A stretch of DNA of 64,000 nucleotides, from contig JADQBG010000003.1 of NCBI GenBank assembly GCA_016278725.1, positions 143,486-207,485 on the forward strand. The letters run 5' to 3'. The position numbers were made by a program, and so were the translations under genes. Positions 1,636 to 6,946 of this stretch are shown here, piece by piece. Below the pieces are notes generated by a model, which did not search any database, was not told the origin of the DNA, and worked only from the letters and a program-made list of their open reading frames with translations. Within the stretch, counting starts at the first letter, position 1. Each line of letters opens with the position of its first letter. Source of the DNA: Actinomycetota bacterium (GTDB lineage: Bacteria; Actinomycetota; Thermoleophilia; RBG-16-64-13).

Positions 1636-1664
1636 TTGTCATGTACTACGAGCTGTAGTACAAT
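1636..1664 (+). promoter_or_regulatory. sigma70-type promoter TTGTCA-N17-TACAAT with palindromic operator TGTACTAC-GAGCT-GTAGTACA (1642-1662) in the spacer and -10
   Basis: Read directly; perfect 8-bp inverted repeat overlapping -10 box. Confidence 0.6.
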
Positions 1665-1670
1665 GCAGTC

Positions 1671-1790
1671 AACAGCAAACGGGTCGGTCGGCCGTAAGGC
1701 CGACATGGCGACGACACGTTTCAAACAAAACCCATCCTCCCTCCTTCGAACTAGGGCCCCGATGACGTGGCAGCGTCGGGGCCTCAGTTC
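1671..1790 (+). ncRNA. candidate small RNA (hairpin, C-rich single-stranded segment, terminator-like hairpin)
   Basis: Downstream of the 1636 promoter: perfect hairpin GTCGGCC-GTAA-GGCCGAC (1687-1704), CCUCCCUCCUU (1736-1746), GC-rich 10-bp hairpin (1755-1783); no convincing ORF. Confidence 0.4.
1755..1783 (+). terminator. terminator-like hairpin GGCCCCGATG...CGTCGGGGCC
   Basis: 10-bp stem with one G-U, 9-nt loop; U-poor tail. Confidence 0.45.
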
Positions 1791-1903
1791 ATTCTGGAGG
1801 CGCTAGGGAGGCTCTGGATGGGGCGCTCGAGGGGGCTCCGGGGGCTCGTCGGCAGCCTCATTCATCAGGGCTTTCAGCCGGTCCCCTGCCGTCCCGTGAT
1901 CGC

Positions 1904-4964: not shown

Positions 4965-6452
4965 CTAATAACCGAGAGACTCCGCCGGGGTGAGCAGATC
5001 CTGCACTCCCGTCGGATCTTTGAGCTCCACCTCCGAGTCGAACATCAGACCCTTCTCGCCCCGATTGTTGAGGTACGTGCCCAACTCCAGGTTGATGTCC
5101 GCCGGCACCGATACCCCGGCTTCGGCCAGCGCCTGCCTGAGCAGAGCCTGGCACTGGGTCGCCATGGCGACCGCGTCGCCCGCGATGCGTCCGGCCTCGC
5201 TGGGGTTGTGGAAGCCCAGCGAGTTCTCCGCGCCCAGATAGTTCGTGCGGTAGAAGGCCTGCAGGTAGAGTTCCTTGGCCTGGTCGTAGAGCGCCTGGTC
5301 GATTTTCTCTCCCGACTCCTGCGCCTTGTGCGTGGTCTCGAACAGCTTCGCCGAGACCGCGGTGGCGTAGCCGGCACGGTTGGTCATCGACAGGGTGCGC
5401 TCCTGGATTTGCACCACCTGGTCCTTCAGGTCCTCGATGGAGCTGGGATGGCACTGCCGGCAGGCCTCCAACTCGTTCTTCAAGGGGCTGGTCACATTGT
5501 GGTCGCTGACCTTGGCCGAGCCGACCCGCGTGTAGGGCATGTGGCAGTCGGCGCAGGATAGACCGGCATTGGCGTGCACGCTCCCGGCCGTGAAGAACTC
5601 GTACTCCGGGTGGCGGATGAACGCCAGCTTGAAGCCGGTGACTCCCTGCTTCCACTCGTAGTAGGAGGGTTCGTCCTTGATCACGTCGATGATGTTCTCG
5701 ATGGTGATGGCGCCCTCGCTGCTGCCCTGCCAAGGGTAGATAAGCTCGACCGGCTTCATCTCCTCATCACGCTGGAGCACGTAGGTCACGTGGCACTGGG
5801 CGCAGGCCAGGGTCCGCATCTGCTGACGCGTCGCGCCTTCGTGGTCAAAGCCTATGCTTTCCAAGGCGGTGGTCAAGGCGGGACGGCTGAGCTTGAGCGC
5901 CATGGTCTCGTTGTCATGGCAGTCGATGCACGCCACTCCCAGCTCTCGGTGTTCCTCGGGGATCCGCGAGAGCACTTCCAGATAAGGATCGGCCATGTAG
6001 CTGGCCCCCTGCTCCTCGCGCATGGCGGTCGCGTAAGGGGTCTTGCAGGTAAGGCACGCGCCCCCCGTCTTGACTCGCGACGGGTCTATCTCGATCTGGT
6101 CGGTGAGCATGTGGGCGTGACCGCGCGGCTCGTTGTATTCGACCCCGAAACCCCAGCCGTTGAAAAGCAGGGCCATGAAGGGGTACTCGCTCAGCTTGTC
6201 GTAGACGACCTTGCCCTCGTCGCCTCCCCGCTTATACGGACTCTCGCCGGCGGGCCTGTCCTCAGCCGTCGCCAGCCAGAGGTCGTACTGGACGGGATAG
6301 ACGTCACCCCACACCTTGGGATCGAAGGTGTCTGCCGGAATGGTCCCTGTCTTCACGGTCTCCGGCTCGTCCGGCGCGCAGCCGAGACCGAGCGGGAGAA
6401 TGGCCACGACCAGCGCGGCCAAGATCAGAAAGGCAGGCACTCTTGGTTTCAT
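4965..6452 (-). CDS. nrfA: pentaheme ammonia-forming cytochrome c nitrite reductase NrfA, lipobox-bearing
   Basis: CLTCK plus CIDCH, CAQCH, CADCH, CRQCH; HPEYE motif; N-terminal LPLGLGC lipobox; ATG at 6452. Confidence 0.93.
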   Translation of the reverse strand: MKPRVPAFLILAALVVAILPLGLGCAPDEPETVKTGTIPADTFDPKVWGDVYPVQYDLWLATAEDRPAGESPYKRGGDEGKVVYDKLSEYPFMALLFNGWGFGVEYNEPRGHAHMLTDQIEIDPSRVKTGGACLTCKTPYATAMREEQGASYMADPYLEVLSRIPEEHRELGVACIDCHDNETMALKLSRPALTTALESIGFDHEGATRQQMRTLACAQCHVTYVLQRDEEMKPVELIYPWQGSSEGAITIENIIDVIKDEPSYYEWKQGVTGFKLAFIRHPEYEFFTAGSVHANAGLSCADCHMPYTRVGSAKVSDHNVTSPLKNELEACRQCHPSSIEDLKDQVVQIQERTLSMTNRAGYATAVSAKLFETTHKAQESGEKIDQALYDQAKELYLQAFYRTNYLGAENSLGFHNPSEAGRIAGDAVAMATQCQALLRQALAEAGVSVPADINLELGTYLNNRGEKGLMFDSEVELKDPTGVQDLLTPAESLGY

Positions 6453-6475
6453 AACTTGCTCCCTCCCCTGCGAGA

Positions 6476-6946
6476 TCAAGGGTTCTTCGCTTCGACCGAT
6501 CCGCCGAAGCCGTGAGACATGCTGCGGTGGCAGTCCCAGCACGTCCTTTCCTGATCGATGTGCGTGGTCATGTCTCCGTGGCAGAGCAGGCAGTTCTCCT
6601 GGACCACCCCTTGTCCTCGTTCCGAAAGCTCGATCTGATCCGGAACCTGGTCGGTGGAGAACACCCACAGGTCATGCACGCCGTCCAGTCCCTTCTGCCA
6701 CAGGTGCCGGGGAGTGCTGGTGTTGGGCAGGTGGCAATCGACGCACTTCACCTGCCGGTGGGGGCCTTCGTGAAACCAGGATTCGTAGTTGGCTTCCATC
6801 GGATGGCAGGCTCCCCCGCAGAACGCTGGCTCCTCGGATCGGGCGAAGAGTTCGGGAGGGCCAAACGCGAGGAAGACCCCAAGGACAATTAGGCCGAGGA
6901 CCGCTCCCAGGACGACCGTCCTCGTGTTCCAACGCAAAGCAGCCAT
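6476..6946 (-). CDS. nrfH: NapC/NirT-type tetraheme quinol dehydrogenase NrfH
   Basis: N-terminal TM anchor; CGGACHPM, CVDCH, CLLCH, CWDCH; directly upstream of nrfA. Confidence 0.9.
   Translation of the reverse strand: MAALRWNTRTVVLGAVLGLIVLGVFLAFGPPELFARSEEPAFCGGACHPMEANYESWFHEGPHRQVKCVDCHLPNTSTPRHLWQKGLDGVHDLWVFSTDQVPDQIELSERGQGVVQENCLLCHGDMTTHIDQERTCWDCHRSMSHGFGGSVEAKNP

Follow-up and report, generated by a model that had tools for sequence, protein, structure and literature searches.

In the window, a 64,000-nt stretch of the source genome (G000), a short segment ahead of a tRNA cluster was put forward in a preliminary description as the gene of an independent small RNA of the anti-Shine-Dalgarno (anti-SD) type. 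The question is whether this segment encodes an RNA of its own, when such an RNA would be made, and on what it would act. Judged from sequence comparison, positions 1634-1795 are very probably the gene of a BlaI-controlled RNA. The whole reading, a BlaI-repressed small RNA acting in trans via its C-rich stretch on ribosome-binding sites, is assigned a probability of about 0.65. The features of the locus are listed in Table 1.

Table 1. Predicted features of the small RNA locus (positions in the window)
Feature	Position	Strand	Remarks
Sigma-70-type promoter TTGTCA-N17-TACAAT	1636-1664	+	10/12 consensus match; fully conserved in G001
Putative BlaI-type operator, palindrome TGTACTAC-GAGCT-GTAGTACA	1642-1662		Fills promoter spacer, overlaps -10
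Predicted small RNA, about 115-125 nt	1671-1795	+	Start placed by the -10, end by the hairpin and the limit of conservation
5' hairpin domain with apical GTCGGCC-GNRA-GGCCGAC (1687-1704)	1677-1721	+	Fold prediction
C-rich, nearly G-free unpaired stretch with anti-SD-like CCUCCCUCCUU	1719-1748	+	Mean unpaired probability 0.86 over 1719-1747
3' GC-rich hairpin, terminator-like	1748-1790 (core 1754-1784)	+	Fully paired in 7/7 copies
Invariant apical motif GUGGCAGC of 3' hairpin	1767-1774	+	Identical in 7/7 copies

The conserved block has sharp limits. Compared with G001, the sole genome of the same genus included, positions 1634-1795 are 97% identical over approximately 162 nt (four substitutions and one insertion), whereas the flanking spacers share 47% (upstream, 1527-1631) and 43% (downstream, 1797-1903) identity. 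All five differences are compatible with the predicted fold. Specifically, the substitutions at 1675 and 1682 fall on unpaired bases, C1692U retains its pair as G-U, the change at 1695 converts the GUAA loop into GCAA, which is still GNRA, and the 1-nt insertion at 1753 lies at the base of the 3' hairpin. A repeat element was considered and dropped, as the unit occurs only once in its own genome. The promoter proposed earlier was recovered at the same place, and is one of two promoter-like sites in 1500-2700, where shuffled sequences gave 0.2; the second belongs to the tRNA cluster (1904-1931).

The RNA from 1671 to 1795 is predicted to fold with -52.1 kcal/mol (z = -4.0), and none of 200 shuffles was equally stable. 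The hairpin GTCGGCC-GTAA-GGCCGAC of the preliminary description is present and forms part of a 5' hairpin that is longer than described there. Its pyrimidine-rich stretch was likewise located (CCCATCCTCCCTCCTTCG, 1731-1748), in a region that is mostly unpaired. The GC-rich, terminator-like hairpin was confirmed as well, and an outer stem, GAACT/AGTTC (1748-1752/1786-1790), which had been overlooked, extends it. An intrinsic terminator with a U-run was not detected after this hairpin within the window, in agreement with the weak U-tail suspected at the outset. The locus combines a promoter of its own with a conserved, structured, non-coding unit, as is characteristic of an sRNA gene.

Seven copies of the RNA were found in five genomes, namely G000, G001, G006 (G006a and G006b), G012 (G012a and G012b), and G014. 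G006 and G012 represent other genera and carry stand-alone homologues, each directly preceded by an operator (G006 C1:2167963 and G012 C160:2051). In both, a short 5' part leads into a C-rich stretch, after which comes a hairpin with a GUGGCAG loop. The G006b, G012b and G014 copies form the 3'UTR of a gene for a secreted peptide of 71-72 aa with conserved His/Cys/Met. Those of G006b and G012b sit immediately downstream of the respective stand-alone copies, and the operator of the G006b peptide gene contains one mismatch. Secreted His/Cys/Met-rich peptides of 70-72 aa were noted behind BlaI-type operators in sister genera (L055:1514-1729, minus strand; L054, L053, L127 and L128); they have no Pfam match and look metal-binding. 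The coexistence of stand-alone and 3'UTR twin forms would offer a natural experiment on the conversion between sRNA genes and mRNA 3' ends.

Conservation in relatives, which the preliminary description had made decisive, is borne out for both hairpins in G001 and for the 3' hairpin in all seven copies. The latter is 100% paired throughout, with compensatory changes in five of 11 pairs, and performs better than slid controls. The C-rich stretch keeps its composition in every copy, while its exact sequence varies among genera; its mean unpaired probability is 0.89 in G001, 0.66 in G006a and 0.55 in G012a. The covariance model, also proposed at the outset, gives the seven copies 67-78 bits, and since these same copies built the model, the informative part is the gap beneath them, down to a next best score of 31.7 bits among 149 genomes. 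The hits inspected below 32 bits (L072, L073, L086, L090) proved to be chance matches in GC-rich or coding sequence. When the GTDB species genomes were scanned with the hairpin pattern, 27 stretches were returned, and the combination with C-rich stretch and operator occurred in the four known relatives, with no further carrier. The restriction of the RNA to five genomes counts against the proposed reading, as does the missing U-tail. In Rfam, the RNA matches no family, and a permissive search yielded chance hits only.

The strongest clue to the timing of RNA synthesis is an element overlooked in the preliminary description, the perfect palindrome TGTACTAC-N5-GTAGTACA within the promoter. It is the single perfect match in the window, where 0.06 matches are expected even when up to two mismatches are allowed. 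The motif of BlaI_0696 from C. thermocellum is reported to consist of GTCTAT repeats in inverted orientation with 5 nt between them (PMC8457756), a spacing equal to that of the operator described here. The core motif of S. aureus BlaI/MecI, TACA/TGTA (PMC5460165), differs from TACTACN5GTAGTA.

Exact TACTACN5GTAGTA occurs three times in G000. Two of these are on contig C11: one stands before a cluster for cytochrome c maturation (CcmE, CcmF, CcmB, CcmC-like), the other before the genes of FtsX/MacB permeases, behind which come thioredoxin-like and CcdA-like genes. With one mismatch, the operator is also found ahead of blaI (L035:10417-10845), which encodes a Penicillinase_R protein (PF03965), and an M48/M56 protease gene adjoins blaI. 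The PF03965 repressor, its own operator and the protease neighbour together assign the system to the BlaI/BlaR1 type. The copper repressor CopY was ruled out, as the repressor has no CXC metal-binding motif. These genes run contiguously as ccm-blaI-protease-FtsX/MacB-thioredoxin-CcdA (L035, G000 C11, 3337-16490), with three BlaI-type operators, two exact and one mismatched.

Among 61 genomes, the exact operator was counted eight to nine times in G004, G012 and G013, five times in G006, and one to three times in G000, G001, G005 and G014. It was absent from the 43 searched genomes of the class outside this family, and reversed-pattern controls gave 0-3 per genome. Of the eight genomes with the operator, seven also have a blaI orthologue, the exception being G014, which is 64% complete; one operator-less genome alone has a blaI relative, with 55% identity. 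In relatives, operators precede blaI and genes for multiheme cytochrome c, an FtrD-like iron-sulfur protein, cation efflux and prolipoprotein diacylglyceryl transferase. Given the motif and this co-occurrence, BlaI would be expected to bind the operator at the RNA promoter. Another operator-driven gene (L041:7612-8148; L042 near 4497) encodes a 179 aa protein with a Cys-rich C-terminus, DPVC...YFCCPRC; the motif resembles a YHS-type metal site, and the protein has no Pfam match.

From these elements we infer a sequence of transcription, repression, signalling and target pairing. A BlaI-family repressor, whose gene lies beside that of an M48/M56-type membrane protease and the ccm cluster, would bind the promoter palindrome and block RNA polymerase. 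A signal would presumably reach the protease, whereupon removal of the repressor would switch on the RNA along with the regulon's genes for cytochrome c and metal handling. The 3' hairpin would end and protect the RNA, and the C-rich stretch would be exposed between it and the 5' hairpin. The RNA would most likely act in trans, with the C-rich stretch pairing to G-rich ribosome-binding sites, which would lower translation of other proteins while the BlaI regulon is on.

The anti-SD mechanism is plausible, the odds for this step being slightly less than even. The C-rich stretch resembles the anti-SD end of 16S rRNA. What stands of the earlier anti-SD proposal is that the stretch is mostly unpaired and C-rich in every copy; its exact sequence drifts, and outside the genus no conserved target was seen. 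In line with the suggested target prediction, a search for the seed complement in both congeners (G000 and G001) identified one shared ribosome-binding site, that of class I fumarase alpha, a gene named by its sequence and not by family search. Among approximately 430 gene starts sampled, this match ranks fourth, and shuffled seeds perform almost as well (mean -13.9 versus -15.9 kcal/mol; best -27.7 versus -30.8 kcal/mol), so that fumarase is only a candidate target. As a conserved target it was discarded, because its ribosome-binding sites in G006 and G012 are not complementary to the C-rich stretch.

The drift of the C-rich stretch, set beside a loop GUGGCAGC that stays identical in all seven copies, directs attention to the invariant GUGGCAG loop as an alternative functional site. 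The BlaI-controlled RNA would then act via this loop, through RNA loop pairing or a protein partner, and the C-rich stretch would be a protein or Rho loading site, not a seed. The occurrence of C-rich stretch and hairpin in mRNA 3'UTRs fits this explanation, which is nevertheless unlikely, the corresponding hairpins of G004 and G013 having a different loop.

The sister genera G004 and G013 also bear on the origin of the RNA. Upstream of tRNA-Tyr, their operator is followed by a peptide gene and then by a C/U-rich stretch; a GC hairpin comes last and carries a U-rich tail. Since this tail occurs at the corresponding place, the 3' hairpin of the RNA probably either derives from a terminator or continues to be one. 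A more radical conclusion would be that the stand-alone copy is a functionless leftover of promoter and terminator after loss of the small peptide gene: the order of operator, peptide gene, C/U-rich stretch and hairpin recurs at the syntenic place in G004, G013, G006 and G014, and the G004/G013 hairpin looks like an ordinary terminator. This is improbable, as the whole unit including the 5' hairpin is near-perfectly conserved against diverged spacers, and G006 and G012 have stand-alone copies in addition to the peptide gene.

A functional RNA with its own promoter, as preferred here, also has to be distinguished from a leader or attenuator of the downstream tRNA/rpmG/secE cluster, which lies just behind the unit in the same orientation. 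The separate tRNA promoter, already noted in the preliminary description, is conserved across the family genomes examined, and in G012 the RNA is on a contig apart from the tRNA cluster; a leader function is therefore rejected as highly improbable. Operator-less family members have unrelated sequence at the locus and retain the tRNA promoter. A small peptide is largely refuted, because the open frame, which has 33 codons and begins with an ATG near 1705, is shifted by the 1-nt insertion in G001 and has no equivalent in G006a or G012a, in keeping with the earlier statement that no frame has coding character. The independent small RNA proposed at the outset thus holds up on its conserved block, structure-preserving substitutions, stand-alone homologues in two genera and separate tRNA promoter.

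BlaI-type repressor systems are known mainly from beta-lactam resistance. As in BlaI/MecI with BlaR1, a PF03965 repressor is encoded next to an M56/M48 protease gene and dyad operators lie inside promoters; the regulon described here differs in that it combines genes for cytochrome c and metal handling with a small RNA. Tentatively, a BlaI-type system may have been re-used for cytochrome c and metal homeostasis, in a regulon with a RyhB/IsrR-like sRNA that exists both as its own gene and as the 3'UTR of a metal-binding-like peptide. A non-exhaustive search of the open-access literature turned up neither a small RNA under BlaI control nor a BlaI regulon that covers cytochrome c biogenesis. If true, an uncultured actinobacterial lineage would gain an RNA arm of the BlaI regulon, and an antibiotic-resistance-type repressor family would be linked to an RNA regulator.

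Three groups of RNAs invite comparison. In B11 of M. abscessus, C-rich segments act on G-rich 5'UTR tracts (PMC10470900). Like the RNA described here, 6C/B11 (Rfam RF01066) is actinobacterial and has unpaired C-rich segments, but these lie in hairpin loops instead of a linker between hairpins. The RF01066 covariance model has no match in the genome, and none at the RNA. IsrR and FsrA pair with Shine-Dalgarno sequences. These sRNAs are under repressor control, contain C-rich motifs and target mRNAs for iron-containing proteins (PMC9410917). Repressor control and C-rich motifs are shared, whereas IsrR and FsrA are iron (Fur)-controlled RNAs of Firmicutes and the RNA here has a BlaI-type operator; the likeness is one of logic. 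CcsR (cuckoo) RNAs of Alphaproteobacteria carry anti-SD-like CCUCC motifs. CcsR1-4 are processed from the 3'UTR of the small-protein mRNA ccaF1 (PMC8625941). The G006b, G012b and G014 copies likewise lie in an mRNA for a small protein, as its 3'UTR; this protein is a different one, promoter and structure differ too, and the likeness is again one of logic.

Judged from sequence motifs only, a gene at 4965-6668 of the window (minus strand) is multiheme nitrite reductase-like (NrfA-like). It sits in antisense orientation, with rplA on one side and the next ribosomal protein genes on the other, and this arrangement recurs in G001 (L036).
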